Shown: piece after piece, positions 20,801 through 54,658 of the stretch
Layout: each line of letters begins with the position of its first letter
Position numbering within the stretch: the stretch's first letter is position 1
Assembly (NCBI GenBank): GCA_031310005.1
Contig: CM062383.1
Span: 1,054,001-1,118,000, forward strand
Origin: Dactylellina haptotyla
Taxonomy: Eukaryota; Ascomycota; Orbiliomycetes; Orbiliales; Orbiliaceae
DNA: 64,000 nucleotides
Direction: 5' to 3'
The notes under the pieces: generated by a model
Told to the model about the DNA's origin: nothing
The model's database searches: none
The model's input: only the letters and a program-made list of their open reading frames with translations
Position numbers and translations under genes: made by a program

Positions 20801-21635
20801 ACCTCCACCGGTCAAATGACTTGGATTAATTATCGTGCCGCCACGGAGGCACGAACTCAACAAGGAAATTAATCAACATAGTCCTCTCACTAACACGAAG
20901 ATTATCGTCTAACATATGAAGTAACCCGAACATGGGGTCCGTAGATTGTGCGGCAGGTTGCCGACCAACTTTGTGATGATTGGTAAATTGCAATTCGATG
21001 CGTGTGGTACGGGGAGGTATGTCTGGTCGGGGACTGGAACTATCGCCGTGCTGAATTTCCAGCGGAATACGGTCAAAAAGGTAGACTGATAGATTGGTAG
21101 ATTGATTACCAACACCAACGGTTCCCTTGCCGTTTTGATATCAAAGGAATTAAGGACCGTTGTGCGACTCGGACTGATACATTCCTGTACCACGAGTCAA
21201 GGAATGCTATACCTTTTTTATCTCTAACAATTTCTGATACGAAACACCCAACACGCGTGCCATAGATTATCGTGCCCCACTAAATCCAACATCCAACAAC
21301 ACGTTTTTTTTCCCCTTCCTATTCAGGGGACTAGGGAAACCCTTGCTGGATTGATGAAAATTATCACCAGGGGTGGAAATTTTTTCTTAGGTATTCTAAC
21401 AGACCTAAATACCAAGTCACAATTGGGATCACGATTGGAACCAAAGGCATATATTTGTTCTTCTTTTTGTTCGGGCTAGGCCTGTAAATAATCACCTAGG
21501 GCGAGATGAATGGATATTACTATCCCGGTCAAGATATATCTAGTAACCAAAACAGTAGTCATATGCATGCATTTAGCAAAACCTAGCACCAAAAAGAGAT
21601 AGCAAAAAGATAACCAGGCGTCTGGTACCAGATAT
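17804..21635. other. Long intergenic region between ERF2 and the tRNA gene
   Basis: About 3.8 kb without a supportable protein gene. Pyrimidine-rich tracts at 18150-18450 and 19190-19300 suggest promoter or leader sequence for ERF2. The part after about 20.1 kb is AT-richer. The longest frame (19067-19762, minus, 231 codons) begins at TTG and shows no family features. Confidence 0.5.
21605..21609 (-). terminator. Pol III T5 terminator of the tRNA gene
   Basis: Five T residues on the minus strand, 27 nt after the tRNA 3' end. A perfect 12-bp palindrome (TCTGGTACCAGA, 21621-21632) lies between them. Confidence 0.6.
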
Positions 21636-21656
21636 TGGACCAAGTAGGGCTCGAAC

Positions 21657-21724
21657 CTGCGGGAACTCTGTTAGTTAATTTGTTCGATTGGAACCGGAAG
21701 GTATTTATGTCTGTGAAATCTTAC
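21657..21724 (-). other. Spliceosomal-type intron inside the tRNA T-arm
   Basis: 68 nt beginning GTAAGA and ending CGCAG, with a branch-site match CTAAC (in TTAACTAACAG) about 14 nt before the 3' end. The flanking junction reads TAG|GTAAGA...CGCAG|GTTC. Length, donor, branch and acceptor all match the mRNA introns of this window (typically 50-80 nt). It sits between bases 52 and 53 of the tRNA, where no tRNA-endonuclease intron belongs. Confidence 0.7.
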
Positions 21725-21739
21725 CTACGACCTTGGCGT

Positions 21740-21753
21740 TACATGATTGTTCA
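21740..21753 (-). other. Canonical tRNA intron (after position 37)
   Basis: A 14-nt insert TGAACAATCATGTA between A37 and A38 of the anticodon loop, the position cut by tRNA-splicing endonuclease. It is separate from the T-arm insert. Confidence 0.7.
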
Positions 21754-21791
21754 TATTAGCACCACGCTCTAACCAACTGAGCTATAAGTCC

Positions 21792-22311
21792 TGGATGAAT
21801 TGTAGATGGAGGCCGTGGGGTGGCATTTTCGTATATGGGGGTAGTTTGGGGGCTGATGCGATTTTGGCATAAGGTTGAGTGGGAGATGGGATGAGATTGT
21901 ATGGTGGTTTATTGGTCTGAGATCCGGTCTCTGATGTAGACTGTTGCGGCCAAGATCGCGAATAGATATATGATTGACATAATCATACAATTTTCCGGAT
22001 ATCTTAAGTTTGCGGCATGATTAAGTCTTCGAATTCGCTGTGACAGCTCAATTGAAACACTTTCAGTCCCGTGAATTTACTAGAATCCTTTCATCACGTG
22101 TATACCACTAAATTATGTATCGAATATTAAATTTTGCTATGATGCGGAGATTGACAGTGACTTCATGACTACTGCCCAATAAAGGGAATTGATAGGAGAC
22201 CTTCGAAATAATCAACAAGATAAAATCCTTAGGTCTTTTGAATATTTCCCGACATTACAACGCCATTTCCAGGGCAGAATTGTAATTCTAATTTTTCAGA
22301 AGTCTTTCAAA
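21792..22311. other. Spacer between tRNA and the orphan gene
   Basis: About 520 bases, AT-rich. A CTAAT...TTTTTCAG tract ends 10 nt before the ATG at 22312 and could be the end of a 5' UTR intron. Nothing else is recognised. Confidence 0.4.
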
Positions 22312-26645: not shown

Positions 26646-29600
26646 ATGACTGCCCTCCAGCGACCGAACGGCTCGACATCGGTCGCAGCGGAGCGACGGC
26701 AATCGAGCCAGTACCATGCGAACGGCCAAGCAAACGGCCAGGCAAACGGTCATGTCAACGGCCAGGCGAACGGCCACGTAAACGGCAACGGCAACAGCAA
26801 CAGCAACGGCAACAGCAACGGTAACGGCCGGCTGACTAACGGATATCACGATGAAGCTCCCGCCCGGAGACCTGCTGAGTTTCGGAGGAACGGACCAGAC
26901 TCTGGCTCCATAAGAAGACGGAGCGTGAACCCGCTGCAATACCCCGGAATATCAAAAGATGGCGGTCCCGGCTCGATTTCGACACCCGACCAGAGTGGCG
27001 ACTCCGAGGTTGAATCGAATGCCAGCCACCAGCTCGTCAAACGTAACTCGTCCGCCGCGAAACTCAACGGTAGTGTCCGAAACAGCATCCTGCGAAACGG
27101 CTCGTTACAGAAGAAGGACCAGCGCGGCCACAGGATGTCACTCGCCCTCATGGCCGGCCAGGGCCTCGTTCCCGACACCTCTCTCTACAATCTGAATGGC
27201 GATATGATGGGCAGCTGGACCGAAGAAGAAAGCTCGGTTCCTGACAACCTCCCTGTCCGGCACGGGTTCGCCGAACAATACAACTCTGAAGAATACCTGC
27301 AACTGCTGGAACAAGCGTTCTACATGTACTACAATGACAAACGGCACGACACGGGAGGAAAACCTCGAAATACGGATGCTACCTTTGTCCAGGAGTGGAG
27401 GATGAAGGATAGATTGAAGACCGTCTCTGCAGCCCTGGTGCTTTGCCTCAATATCGGAGTCGACCCTCCCGGTTAGTCACAAGACTCCTCAAGTGTTCTT
27501 TTTATATATAACTAACAAATTGTTTAGATGTTGTCAAGACGAATCCCTGCGCGAAACTCGAATGCTGGGTCGACACTGCCTCTCACCCCAGTCCTAAGGC
27601 GCTTGAAATGATTGGCAAGAACCTCCAATCCCAGTACGAAACCCTCAGTATACGAACCCGATACAAACAATACTTGGATCCATCTGTCGAAGAAACGAAA
27701 AAGTTTTGTTGCTCGCTGCGAAGGAATGCGAAGGACGAGCGTATTCTTTTCCACTACAACGGCCATGGTGTACCGAAACCTACCAGCAGTGGCGAGATCT
27801 GGGTGTTCAATAAAAACTATACACAGTATATCCCGATATCATTATATGACCTACAAAGCTGGCTAGGCGCCCCCAGCTTGTTCGTTTACGATTGCAGTGA
27901 TGCCGGGAATATCGTTGCAAATTTCAACCGATTTGTCGAGAAGCACGAGCAGGAGAACCGCGACAACCCGTCAAAGGATCCGGGGTCCGCCGTATCCTAT
28001 TCTGATTGTATTCAGCTTGCGGCTTGTGGACCCAAGGAGACCTTGCCGATGAACCCCGACCTCCCGGCCGATCTTTTCACATGTTGCTTAACCACTCCGA
28101 TCGAAATAGCAATTCGATTTTATGTGCTGCAAAACCCTCTCCCATCCCCGGTTACTCTCGAAATGGCCCTCAAAATCCCAGGGAGACTTCAGGAAAGACG
28201 GACGCCATTGGGTGAACTCAACTGGATATTCACGGCTATCACCGATACCATCGCTTGGGGCACCCTCCCTCGACCGTTGTTTAAGAAACTATTCCGACAA
28301 GATTTGATGGTTGCTGCACTGTTCAGGAATTTCCTATTGGCGCAGCGCATAATGAGGGTTTATAAGTGCCACCCCGTCTCGTGTCCTGCGTTACCGAGCA
28401 CCCATCATCATCCACTTTGGCAGTCGTGGGATTTGGCGGTCGAGACAGTACTCTCTCAACTACCCCAACTACTGAAGGCACAAGAGGGCGGTCCACCATT
28501 CGAATATCAGCATTCCTCTTTCTTCTCGGAGCAGCTGACTGCCTTCGAGGTCTATTTGACCCAGGGCACCGCAGACCGACGACCTCCAGACCAACTTCCA
28601 ATAGTATTGCAAGTTTTGCTGAGTCAGGTCCATCGTTTGCGAGCGCTTATACTCCTCTCAAAGTTCTTGGACCTCGGGCCGTGGGCTGTCAACCTAGCTC
28701 TAAGTATCGGTATCTTCCCATACGTCTTGAAGTTGCTCCAGTCGGCCGCCGCTGAATTAAAGCCAGTCATGGTTTTCATCTGGGCTAGACTTTTGGCTGT
28801 TGACCCCTCCTGCCAGATCGATCTGTTGAAAGACAACGGATACAGTTATTTTACCCAGATACTAACGCCGAACTCGGGCATTCCTATTCAGAATGCCTCT
28901 GAACATCGTGCTATGTGTGCGTTTATATTGAGTATCTTTTGCAGAGGGTTCCACCAGGGTCAGGTAGTCTGCATTAATCCTGGAGTTCTACAATCATGCC
29001 TAGCTCATTTCAATGAGCCAGAGAACCCACTCCTCAGACAATGGGCGTGCCTGTGTATCTCGCAGTTGTGGGCTGATTACCCGGAAGCTAAATGGCTCGG
29101 TTACAAGGAGGAAGCTCATATCAAACTTTGCGCAATGCTTATCGACCCAGTCCCTGAAGTAAGGACTGCCGCCCTATACGCTATGTCAACGTTGATAGGA
29201 ACTCCTGACAACGAGTCCGGGAAAATTGCGGCCTTTGAGGCTGAGATGGCAGCTGCGGCGGTTCATATCACCAGCGACGGAAGTAGTATGGTCCGTAAAG
29301 AGCTCGTGGTCTTCCTCTCGATATATATCAAGAGATATGAGAGCAAGTTTTTGGTCGCCGCGTTTGAGTTCCTTAGGTCGGAGCTCGCGCATATGAAGGG
29401 TACCCATAGCAGCTTGAGAGATAGGATTGATGGTATTTCAGAGAAGACGATATACGCAAGCGTCTGGACGACGACAATGATGCTGTCTGCGGATCCGTAT
29501 ATTGAGGTTTCGGAGAACGCGACAATCATCGTGGACTATATCCACCGCGCATTGTTGCTCTCTCCTCTCGGAGAACCTACTCAGGAGATTATCGATGAAA

Positions 29601-31349
29601 TTTCAAAGCTCCGGATTCGCCCTCCCAGAGAGCTGTCCCTCGCACAAGCAGAGCTCCAGTCCACAAAATCCGCCCCCGTGTCGCCTGGTATCACAGCAGT
29701 TGACGGTTACTTCTCGAGCACCTTCAAGAGAACGTTTAGTATTGCGACGTCGTTGAAGAATTTGGCTCTAGGAGGTGGCGGCGATGTGACACCAACGGAG
29801 AGGATTCCCACTAAGATGCTGTCTAATGGGCGGCCAAATACGGGAGATAAGAAGATGACGGCAGAAATCAAGCCTTCTGATATGGGTATATTTGGAGGCT
29901 ATTCTAAGAAGAAGCAACCAACGCCTAAGCATTTTGTGCCGAAGCTTGAAGAACCCCCAACTATTCCTTTGGCAAGCACTTTCTTCGAATGGAGTGTTGA
30001 GGTACGTTTATTTCGATTTAAAACACCATAGAACTGAATATTTCTGACAATGGATCTAGTACTTCCGAGAACCACAAATGAAACCAACCGAGGCTGATGA
30101 ACCTGGAAGTTTGGACTACAACCAACGATTATGGCGCCGTAATAGGAACGAGAACATAATCTCTAGGACCCAGCCGCAGAAAGAGAGAGCCATGGTTGGC
30201 AAGTGGGACGCTCAGATTGGCCTCTTCAACAATGGCGGCCAGCCAACCCGTTTGCTTCTCCACCAGTTCGAGGATCATATGATCTCTGTTGATGATAAGG
30301 ATACGGTTTCGTAAGTGCAAACAATAGTCGCAAGGGAATCTCATCTGCTAACAATCATATTAGGGTTTGGGATTGGAGTAAAGGTTACAGACTCAACCAA
30401 TTCAGCAACGGGAACCCCTCCGGCACCCGTATTACGGATATCAAATTCATCAACGAGGACGATACAGCTCTCCTCCTAACGGGCAGTGGCGATGGTGTCG
30501 TGCGGATTTACAAAAATTACGAAGAGGACAGAAATATAGAGCTCGTTTCGGCCTGGCGAGCACTGACCGACTTGTTACCTTCCAACAGAAGCTCAGGCTT
30601 GGTCGCTGACTGGCAGCAAGGCCGTGGTTCTCTGCTCGTCGGAGGTGATATGAAAGTCATCAGAGTCTGGGATGCGCCGCGTGAGGTCTGCTTGCAGGAT
30701 ATTCCCGCAAGATCGGGTAGCTGTATAACTTCCCTCACGTCCGACCAAGTTGCTGGCAACATTTTTGTAGCTGGCTTTGGCGACGGTGCGGTGAGAGTAT
30801 ACGACCGCAGATTGGACCCGCGCGACGCAATGGTGAGGGCGTGGAAAGAACACAAAGCGTGGATCACCAAGGTACACATGCAGCGCGGTGGATTGAGAGA
30901 GCTGGTCACCGGTAGCACGAACGGTGATGTTAAGCTTTGGGATATTCGGAATCCGGGCGCTCTCTTGGATATCATGGCGCACAAGAGTGGTATGAGAAGT
31001 CTGGCGGTGCATGAGCATGCGCCTGTATTTGCTACGTAAGTTTTCTATCATTTTCCCGTATCTCTAAACAGTCAACAGTTACTAATTATCGAATTTTTCT
31101 AGCGGAGGACTAAACCACGAGATCAAGTTCTGGAATACTAATGGTCTCCACACATCTTCTGTCCGGCCCTACTCGACATTCCTTCACCAGAAGGGCTCCT
31201 CTCCAATCTCCATTCTCGGCTTCCATCCTCATAGAATGATGCTTGCGTGCGCCACGAGCGGTGATTATCATATCAACCTTTATGCTTGCGATCACGAGTA
31301 TAAGAATATGGGGCTCGACGACCCTACCGAGGAGATCTTGCAGTTATAA
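26646..31349 (+). CDS. KOG1: TORC1 subunit Kog1/Raptor
   Basis: Five exons, 26646-27471, 27528-30001, 30060-30310, 30364-31035 and 31103-31349, with introns of 53-67 nt, give 1,489 residues. After a disordered N-terminus with an Asn-Gly repeat comes the Raptor N-conserved, caspase-like domain. It retains the His motif YNGHG (H355) and the VYDCSDAG motif (C398). An armadillo/HEAT region follows (for example PWAVNLALSIGIFPYVLKLL), then a linker and a C-terminal WD40 propeller (from about residue 1190: DDKDTVSVWDWSKG, TGSGDGVVRIYKNY, GGDMKVIRVWDAPRE, GSTNGDVKLWDIRNP). Established role: scaffold that presents substrates to TOR kinase in nutrient signalling at the vacuole. The gene converges on SLA2, leaving about 1.1 kb between their ends. 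Confidence 0.97.
26721..26830 (+). repeat. Asn-Gly coding minisatellite in KOG1
   Basis: Tandem AACGGC-based units encode NGQANGQANGHVNGQANGHV and then NG/NS dipeptides. It lies in the disordered N-terminus, before the conserved domain. Confidence 0.85.
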
Positions 31350-52556: not shown

Positions 52557-54658
52557 ATGTCCGACGCCGACTTCAATCCCTTCGCTCCTCGAGCTGCCCT
52601 CCGCCGCTCTCCACCCGGGGGGGCTCGGGGCAGCAGCAACAGCAACCGCAGCAAGACCCCCGTCGCTGCATCGCGGGGTCTCACCAGATCGATCACACCC
52701 AAAGCTCCCACTCCCAGAGAGGCGACTCCCAGAGATGCGACTCCCAAGGTCGCCACCCCGCAAAGTGACACCAGAGAGTCGTCGCAGGAACCCGTTCTGC
52801 GGTCTATGACCTCGCCGATCCGGGATATCGACATTGTCAGTTCAATTCCTCATCTGTACATTCCTCTGTCTTGTCGTTGTGTATACCCTGCTAACAATGT
52901 AAACAGTCCTTCTCACAGCCTACAATATCTTCCTCCCGCCACCTCGCCGTCTCCCTGACTCCCAGAGCGTCCACCGTCGAGCCCGTAACACCCTCCTATA
53001 TCCGTCCTTCTTCCTCAGTAGCCGGTACCTCCCTACGGCGCAAGGCTACTACTCCGCATGCAATCCGCGGCTACTCCAACCGCCCAACCCCCCACAAAAA
53101 CCAGGGCAAACGGCGCAACTCCCGCTTCGCCGGCGAGGACGATGACATATTCCAAGCACTTAAGCAGTTTAGCAAAAGTATGTCTATTTAAAGTATCCAA
53201 TTGAAAGAAACGCACACTGACCGCAGCTGGTAGTAACCGCCCCGACGTCAAAACCATTCATCCCCACCCCCAAAGCGATAACCCCAAAAGCTGCCACCTC
53301 CCGCCGCCGCACCCTCGAGGGCATCCGCTTGAACCGCGACCTAGACGCCGTATCCTCAGAAGAAGACGAATCAGCAATCCGTGCGCCGCGCCTTTCCAAC
53401 GTGTCATTGAAGCTCATGGGCAGGAACTTCTCAATCAACGCTCATGACGACGACGAAGATGATGAGGACATCAGCCCGCCGCAACTCACATCCCCGCTAA
53501 TGAAGGACAACGACGACGACGAGGCAACCGGTACAGTCAACGGCACGCCGAGATTTGAGGTTGCCCGACGAGCGGTGGCGGATAACGACCGGCGGATGAG
53601 TTTCCTGCCGAATGCGTTCGACCGGTTCGCAGATTTTGACGATGTGGTAATGGATGATAGCGTTATCCAAGAGCAACTTCCCTCAGACGTGGGGTTCGAA
53701 CAGTCAAGTTTTGCGGTGGAGCAGGAAGGTTTGAGTTTTGCGTAGGCCTCACTCCCCCCTTTAATTCCCCAGATTAGAACTATACTGACAGCGATTGGTA
53801 TGAATGAATAGTGACCATACAGCCGATTTGAACGGAGATGTATCCAACTTTTTCGACCCGCAGGGCATGGGCAATCCCGACGACGAAACCGATTTCCGCC
53901 TCGAACAGGTGGATATATCCGCTCTCGCAGAAGAACCGCCCGAACTCATCAACGACGATTCCTCCCCGCCGCCATTTGCTGGCGGCTTGGAGCCTGGATT
54001 TGTCGATTCGGACTTCGACGAGGATGATGACGGAGATAGACCGCTGCACTTGCAAGCAGGGTTACAATCGGCTCTTGGAAGACGACCTTTAAATCTGGGA
54101 GACGACGACGACGACGACGAAATGAACAGTAGACCTGCCAAACGTCCTCGTACGAAGAAGGAACTACCACTCTCATCGTATGGTATTCCGTATCCTAGTC
54201 TACCGCCGCGAGTGATCAAGGCCATTATAGCGCGGACCAGCAAGCAGAAATTATCGAAGGAGGCGTTGAATATGGTTGTTTCGGCTTCAAATGCATATTT
54301 TGAGAATCTGGGGGAAGATTTGGGAAGTTTTGCGCGGCACGGGAAGAGGAAGACGGTGGAGGAAGGTGACGTCCTGCAGGTTCTAAGACGGTATGTTTAC
54401 ATTATTCCCTGGCTTTCATTCTTGGTATATCTTGGTATATATCTACAATTATTTACGGACTGTTGCTAATATACATTTTTTGGTTGTATTTACAGACACC
54501 GCCTACTGAACGACAAGACGACGGTGTTTTCGCTGGCGAACCAGTATTTACCCAGAGAGCTGCTGCAGGATATCAGGATCCAGGTGCCGAAGAGAAATGA
54601 AGTGAAGCCGAGGCGACGGAGGGCGCAAGACGAGGCTGACGAAAGTATGGAGGTATAG
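52557..54658 (+). CDS. CENP-T: Inner-kinetochore histone-fold protein CENP-T (Cnn1)
   Basis: Five exons, 52557-52835, 52907-53177, 53234-53741, 53812-54390 and 54496-54658, with introns of 56-105 nt, give 599 residues. The N-terminus starts MSDADFNPFAPRAALRRSPP and carries repeated TP sites. The middle is acidic and disordered, with a few basic, phosphorylatable motifs. The C-terminus holds the histone fold (about residues 480-560): YPSLPPRVIKAIIARTSKQK, LNMVVSASNAYFENL, EEGDVLQVLRRHRLL, followed by YLPRELLQDIRIQ and a basic tail. Established role: CENP-T binds centromeric DNA with CENP-W, and its N-terminus recruits the Ndc80 complex. The third intron boundary uses GGTAG rather than GCAG, which keeps the frame. 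Its stop is 47 bp from the SHY1 stop. Confidence 0.9.
52710..52769 (+). repeat. 15-nt coding repeat in CENP-T
   Basis: Four tandem 15-nt units of the type ACTCCCAGAGAGGCG, the later ones diverged, encode TPREA-TPRDA-TPKVA-TPQSD. Each gives one TP site. Confidence 0.75.

Follow-up and report, generated by a model that had tools for sequence, protein, structure and literature searches.

Of the roughly 91 nuclear tRNA genes that were examined in the genome of Dactylellina haptotyla and form a good cloverleaf, seven carry inserts of spliceosomal type, and these inserts are very probably true U2-type GT-AG introns, removed by the spliceosome from the transcripts of functional RNA polymerase III (Pol III) tRNA genes. 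The hosts are two tRNA-Ile(AAT) genes, one tRNA-Gly(UCC) gene, each of the two tRNA-Leu(CAA) genes located, and two of four tRNA-Phe genes located. They are spread over five contigs and hold their inserts at four positions, namely at 30/31, at 33/34, in the variable loop and at 52/53, none of which is the canonical 37/38. One of the two Ile genes lies in the window, i.e., the stretch of 64,000 nucleotides from contig CM062383.1 (positions 1,054,001 to 1,118,000; assembly GCA_031310005.1) that was analysed here. A model that saw only the letters of this stretch and a list of its open reading frames (the sequence-only reading) had reported that insert and had offered two interpretations, one of them being that the spliceosome splices a Pol III transcript. 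This proposal is now well supported across the genome, by recurrence in seven genes and at four positions, exact empty sites in the Phe family, exons that are conserved while the inserts drift, and the lack of TTTT in the inserts.

The tRNA-Ile(AAT) gene of the window

The gene occupies positions 21636..21791 on the minus strand and measures 156 nt including both of its introns and 74 nt without them. Rfam model RF00005 covers all 156 bases (33.6 bits) and assigns the surplus stretch to the T-arm, and ARAGORN reads tRNA-Ile(aat) once both introns are deleted. The spliceosomal-type insert (68 nt; 21657..21724, minus strand) interrupts the T-stem between bases 52 and 53, as placed by a deletion scan, shuffled sequences and sequence motifs. 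Read on the minus strand (21724-21657), it is flanked by GTAG on the 5' side and GTTCGAGCCCTAC on the 3' side, starts with GTAAGA, contains AACTAACAGAG in its interior, has a CTAAC branch motif and ends with CGCAG; coordinates, donor, branch and acceptor are all as the sequence-only reading had given them. Removal of the insert restores the perfect T-stem claimed there, GTAGG/CCTAC, with five of five pairs. Both internal Pol III promoter elements are intact, as had also been seen correctly: the A box, TAGCTCAGTTGG, lies at 21773..21784 and the B box core, GTTCGAGCC, at 21648..21656 (both minus strand), and the G that precedes this core in the DNA and completes the B box is the final base of the insert. 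A run of TTTTT at 21604..21608 on the same strand, 28 nt beyond the tRNA end, is the likely Pol III terminator.

The earlier description of a tRNA-Ile gene with a single intron in its T-arm was right about that insert and missed a second, canonical tRNA intron of 14 nt, which follows base 37 in the anticodon loop (21740..21753, minus strand, i.e., 21753-21740 in the direction of the gene). This intron is located by comparison with two insert-free tRNA-Ile(AAT) genes, L002 and L010, and by the cloverleaf scorer, which finds a 14-nt intron and the anticodon AAT; ARAGORN, run on the gene minus the 68 nt, also reports a 14-nt intron, but shifted, and gives the isotype as Thr(agt). With both introns removed, the cloverleaf has 20 of 21 stem pairs. 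The T-stem, anticodon stem and D-stem are all complete, and the acceptor stem contains the single mismatch, U.U at 6-67, next to G.U at 5-68. Both of these acceptor-stem pairs had been overlooked in the sequence-only reading. In a comparison by eye with L010 and L002, pairing is broken at one position, 6-67, and five stem pairs (3-70, 28-42, 50-64, 51-63 and 52-62) are changed on both sides with pairing kept, which argues that the T-stem split by the insert evolved as a stem, not necessarily after the insertion. Considered alone, the gene is probably a functional tRNA gene; it is the weakest of the seven cases, having an acceptor-stem mismatch and no empty-site copy.

Genome-wide survey

The genome searched comprises 39.8 Mb in 11 contigs; a palmitoyltransferase gene in the window shows 99% identity to a protein of D. 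haptotyla CBS 200.50. The RF00005 list contains 62 tRNAs, 50 of which are nuclear, and it misses genes with such inserts, given that the window gene is absent from it; with the fast filters of Rfam, three of the seven insert genes match at the gathering score, and L142 has no Rfam match at E≤0.1 even with lax filters. An Ile anticodon-arm pattern occurs at 11 places in the genome, four of which are tRNA-Ile(AAT) genes. Besides the window gene, these are L036 (C6:1041057; supported by Rfam), which carries a 58-nt insert (GTAAAT...AACTAATAAG...ATAG) in its variable loop (CAAG/GTCGCG, the slash marking the insertion site) and no ordinary intron; L002 on C2, with a 23-nt ordinary intron and no insert; and L010 on C7, with neither intron nor insert.

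A B-box-plus-terminator pattern gave 94 matches, some of which share a B box, vs 34 in a reversed control; 40 new places were examined and then 16 more, and these sixteen remaining matches are not tRNAs. The pattern yielded L095, a tRNA-Gly(UCC) gene with a 63-nt insert at 33/34 (GTAAGT...TTCTAAC...CTCTAG), and the tRNA-Leu(CAA) genes L089 and L118, with inserts of 78 nt and 64 nt, respectively, at 30/31 (GTATGT...CTAAC..., with TAG/CAG ends in the pair), each followed by an ordinary intron. A D-arm pattern, present at 31 places, yielded the tRNA-Phe genes L142 and L143, with inserts of 60 nt and 56 nt, respectively, at 30/31 (GTCAGT...TACTAAC..., again with TAG/CAG ends in the pair). The two insert-free tRNA-Phe genes, L140 and L141, lie 1.1 kb apart on the same strand (C2:1275203 and C2:1276326). 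An ordinary 37/38 intron coexists with the insert in five of the seven genes: the window gene, both Leu genes and both insert-bearing Phe genes. The six insert-bearing genes other than the one in the window had been overlooked by the sequence-only reading, as had the two insert-free tRNA-Ile(AAT) genes L002 and L010.

The total of about 91 tRNA genes is made up of the 50 nuclear genes from Rfam, the window gene, L002 and L036, and 23 of 40, 10 of 14 and 5 of 8 places from the pattern searches, and is a sample that is neither complete nor random. Two of the pattern searches gave 143 and 176 matches, of which those at the head of each listing were covered. Seventeen of the 40 places (L086-L088, L092-L094, L097, L100, L104, L105, L107, L108, L111, L120, L121, L123 and L124) and four of the 14 (L127, L129, L135 and L137) were excluded for a weak cloverleaf, and three of the eight (L144-L146) as containing no tRNA; L060 and L067 were counted as tRNA genes on the basis of Rfam. 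For an earlier genome of D. haptotyla, 149 tRNA genes were reported by ARAGORN and tRNAscan-SE under default settings (PMC3828140).

The cloverleaf scorer was run over 110 items, which did not include L002, L036 and the window gene; it flagged L089, L118, L142 and L143 and revealed no further insert case among them. For L118 it picked a GT-AG pair different from the one reported here, and L095 went unflagged because the scorer permits a long anticodon-loop intron. A pattern for variable-loop inserts matched at four places, vs none in the control, and only L036 fits. Two of the others, L163 (C2:645199) and L164 (C7:3170413), are by eye tRNA-Cys genes with an ordinary intron, and C5:2691889 is the tRNA-Lys gene L053.

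Several further elements were encountered. L038 (G000:C1:5270317, minus strand) is a truncated, mutated Ile relative of L036 whose variable-loop site has no insert and represents an empty site within the genome. L087, L092, L097, L120 and L123 are tRNA-like, with a B box and a T-run, and have weak cloverleaves; they are possibly diverged or dead tRNA genes. L129 (G000:C1:3175356-3175720, minus strand) is a nuclear tRNA-like element with a weak cloverleaf that ARAGORN reads as tRNA-SeC(tca). L100 (G000:C3:1501031) is a B-box fragment resembling the 3' part of a tRNA-Lys, about 130-200 bp upstream of the complete tRNA-Lys gene L029; ARAGORN finds no tRNA in it. The mitochondrial contig G000:C11 (249,811 bp) contains the same tRNAs twice at a spacing of about 140.7 kb (176/140884, 22761/163480 and 89180/229899) and thus resembles a 140.7-kb circle (approximate size) read through 1.8 times; the published mitogenome of D. 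haptotyla has 146,101 bp (PMC7801010).

Intron signals and splice register

All seven inserts start with GT, end with AG and contain CTAAC or CTAAT, with the branch A 11-18 nt before the insert end. In 40,000 shuffles per insert, the combination of GT-AG, donor and branch arose 0 to 7 times, the highest number being that of the window insert. A set of 20 window introns (four established by homology and 16 predicted from ORFs, two of the introns overlapping) served for comparison; two reversed controls of the intron prediction gave three hits. The four homology-checked introns lie on the plus strand in the Raptor/Kog1 gene, where they were located by tblastn of P0122 and leave an open spliced frame: intron 1 (27472..27527; 56 nt, GTTAGT..AACTAAC..TTTAG), intron 2 (30002..30059; 58 nt, GTACGT..TTCTGAC..TCTAG), intron 3 (30311..30363; 53 nt, GTAAGT..GCTAAC..TTAG) and intron 4 (31036..31102; 67 nt, GTAAGT..ACTAAT..TCTAG). 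An ORF-predicted mRNA intron of 71 nt on the plus strand (52836..52906; a prediction only) has the donor GTCAGTT, which is also the donor of both tRNA-Phe inserts. The likeness in length and motifs to the mRNA introns of the window, claimed earlier for the window insert, agrees with this set: window introns and tRNA inserts have a common length range (the tRNA inserts measure 56-78 nt, the four Raptor/Kog1 introns 53-67 nt and the complete set of 20 introns 49-107 nt), common donors and a common branch motif. TTTT occurs in none of the seven tRNA inserts vs 11 of the 20 window introns (Fisher p=0.022), and the T content is 27.7% vs 35.4% (p=0.003), the statistics being computed from seven inserts, four of which form two related pairs, and from comparison introns of which 16 of 20 are predicted. 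Since a T-run ends Pol III transcription, the missing TTTT is suggestive of inserts that comply with what Pol III transcription would demand.

The deletion scan scored the cloverleaf after deletions of 35-110 nt that leave at least 70 nt (35-86 nt in the window gene). For the window gene the best result is one 68-nt deletion with five equivalent registers, one of which is GT-AG. The GT-AG register is also within the top-scoring tie for L095, L142 and L143, the tie of L143 including an unrelated 44-nt deletion as well. Six registers tie for L095, of which GT-AG alone gives the anticodon TCC and the next one GCC, also Gly; Rfam shows one non-standard D-stem pair in this gene. For L036, six registers score better than GT-AG and 91 tie with it under a score that is tolerant of long variable loops; Rfam, unaided, locates the insert in the variable loop, with zero non-standard pairs. 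The best-scoring deletion in both Leu genes lies 2 nt upstream of GT-AG, and removal at GT-AG leaves a U29.U41 mismatch in the anticodon stem. Minimum-energy folds of L036, L095 and the Leu genes form arms other than those of the cloverleaf.

The strongest case for the GT-AG register is the Phe family, which settles it without recourse to scoring: once their GT-AG inserts are excised, L142 and L143 match the insert-free L141 in 73 of 73 exon bases. The exons of L140 and L141 differ by one T-stem base pair, which is changed on both sides. ARAGORN reads these two genes as Tyr(gta) because it sets their intron two bases upstream of the usual site; an intron at 37/38 gives the anticodon GAA, and the naming as Phe depends on this placement. 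Three of the five distinct insertion sites are preceded by AG (GTAG/G, CAAG/G and CAG/A), as at proto-splice sites, and the Gly (CCT/T) and Leu (GTG/A) sites are not.

Conservation of the genes and alternative explanations

The A and B boxes are kept in all seven insert genes, each of which has a run of at least five T starting no more than 28 nt downstream. An unlikely alternative is that the inserts are dead weight, i.e., that the tRNA genes were killed by insertion and go unprocessed while intact copies serve the cell. Two insert-free genes each exist for Ile(AAT) and Phe and could supply the cell, the window gene has its acceptor-stem mismatch, and L038 is an Ile relative that has truly decayed. 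Against decay, GT, CTAAY and AG are preserved and TTTT is absent in all seven inserts, the stems of L036 consist of standard pairs throughout, and the exons within the Leu and Phe pairs are identical despite differing inserts and flanks. The insert interiors of L089 and L118 are 57% alike (shuffled mean 49%, maximum 56%), which, being above the shuffled maximum, suggests that the Leu inserts retain a trace of common origin; those of L142 and L143 are 56% alike (shuffled mean 48%, maximum 59%). The likeness of the upstream flanks is 0.49 over 150 nt for the Leu pair, vs 0.49 when shuffled, and 0.58 for the Phe pair over 22 nt only, vs 0.49 (maximum 0.64). With exons identical and with inserts and flanks diverged, the pairs do not look like fresh duplicates; that exons were held and inserts were not could reflect selection on the product, or gene conversion. 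A genome-wide search with the Leu(CAA) D-arm, allowing up to three mismatches, found five places, namely L089, L118 and three at three mismatches, and no insert-free Leu(CAA) gene, which also speaks against dead weight; Leu(UAA) could decode UUG by wobble. The narrower explanation by a single dead pseudogene is weakened by the existence of six further insert-bearing tRNA genes.

Excision of the inserts by the tRNA splicing endonuclease at bulge-helix-bulge (BHB) motifs, as for the ectopic introns of archaea and Cyanidioschyzon, is less probable still. The eukaryotic enzyme measures to position 37/38; the inserts lie elsewhere, and in five of the seven genes they stand side by side with 37/38 introns. 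The GT...CTAAY...AG signals found in all seven play no part in the endonuclease pathway. A BHB central helix is possible with 4/4 pairs at the Phe junctions and 3/4 in the window gene, as this explanation would have it, and reaches 2/4 in the Gly and both Leu genes and 1/4 in L036; two canonical introns also give 3/4, so that this helix count does not discriminate between the intron types. Ectopic tRNA introns do occur in eukaryotic algae (PMC3978253).

Slightly less probable again is that the inserts belong, as introns, to Pol II transcripts of host genes or lncRNAs that cross the tRNA genes and yield no tRNA. The intron signals are indeed those of mRNA; however, tRNA stems re-form in separate genes once the inserts are taken out, the inserts are free of TTTT, and at the window locus no ORF of at least 100 aa, stop to stop, overlaps 21141-22182. 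An assembly or sequencing artefact, for which nothing speaks except the rarity of the feature, is scarcely credible in view of the common architecture at seven loci on five contigs and of a nanopore assembly reported to be polished with ~123x short reads (PMC10580851).

Proposed maturation pathway

Spliceosomal introns in functional tRNA genes thus being the preferred explanation, we infer the course of transcription, spliceosomal removal and the order of events from the anatomy of the genes and the comparisons among them. With the internal A and B boxes as promoter, RNA polymerase III would transcribe the tRNA gene. The spliceosome would recognise GT, CTAAC and AG while the pre-tRNA is still nascent or unfolded and would join the tRNA halves, most likely in the nucleus and before the tRNA body folds. 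In the genes that also have a 37/38 intron (the window gene and the Leu and Phe genes with inserts), the tRNA splicing endonuclease (TSEN) and ligase would excise that intron separately. The yeast tRNA endonuclease acts outside the nucleus, and tRNA export favours a folded T-arm and acceptor; the spliceosomal step would therefore precede the endonuclease step. It appears likely that the spliceosome is a regular tRNA-maturation machine in this lineage, that several tRNA families depend on it, the two Leu(CAA) genes found among them, and that five pre-tRNAs need two splicing machines, probably sequentially and perhaps in two compartments.

Relation to known systems and significance

It is commonly taught that tRNA introns fall to the tRNA endonuclease and that spliceosomal introns belong to Pol II transcripts, with few exceptions (U6, U3 and lichen rRNA); U6 is a Pol III transcript. 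Among small structured RNAs, frequent interruption by an intron is described as known for U3 and U6 only (PMC5832005). The introns of fungal U6 snRNA and U3 snoRNA resemble the inserts in being GT-AG introns with a branch site within small structured RNAs, whereas the hosts reported here are tRNA genes of four isotypes, interrupted at four positions, and five of the seven have a second, tRNA-type intron. The nuclear rDNA of lichens bears spliceosomal introns, and one of 57 bp placed in yeast rDNA is reported to be spliced from the Pol I rRNA (PMC8527467). These introns too are short and spliceosomal and lie in a transcript not made by Pol II, but the polymerase is Pol I and the product rRNA, vs Pol III and tRNA here. 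In the present genome a typed 18S probe was without match, an approach that says nothing on rDNA introns.

Canonical nuclear tRNA introns, processed by TSEN and ligase, are likewise found in nuclear tRNA genes, one of them within the window gene itself; they sit at 37/38, and their recognition relies on structure, with no part played by GT-AG motifs (PMC13149111), whereas the inserts sit elsewhere and have such motifs. The ectopic tRNA introns of archaea, Cyanidioschyzon merolae and the Guillardia theta nucleomorph share with the inserts a location outside 37/38, the archaeal ones also occurring in the T-arm. Those of algae and archaea are mostly of the BHB type, many in Guillardia forming no defined BHB motif, and the account of them in PMC3978253, as far as available, describes no spliceosomal signals of the kind that the inserts have.

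Fungal introner-like elements have been proposed to give rise to new spliceosomal introns (PMC4457414), and an introner-like insertion had been the other possibility raised for the window gene. Such elements multiply as related copies, whereas the 68 nt of the window insert, when searched for close copies, matched only itself in the genome at E≤10, which leaves a recent introner copy or mobile family unsupported. The word 'tRNA' is absent from the main text of PMC4457414. Among the matches listed in a search of titles and abstract openings of the open-licence literature, there was no precedent for spliceosomal introns in tRNA genes. Set against the precedents in U3 and U6, lichen rDNA and the BHB introns of algae and archaea, the finding adds a new class of host to a known type of intron.

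Annotation of such genes is misled, the isotype given by ARAGORN differing from the one assigned here in five of the seven: one Ile gene is read as Tyr, both Leu genes as His, and the two insert-bearing Phe genes as Asn and Ile; the program misreads the insert-free Phe genes as well (Tyr in two of two). Because the empty state of a tRNA insertion site is exactly known, these genes offer a natural test of intron gain, and the absence of TTTT predicts which introns Pol III genes can tolerate. If the reading as spliceosomal introns is true, the spliceosome would act on short, highly structured Pol III transcripts, and the supply of tRNA would be coupled to the availability and capacity of the spliceosome.
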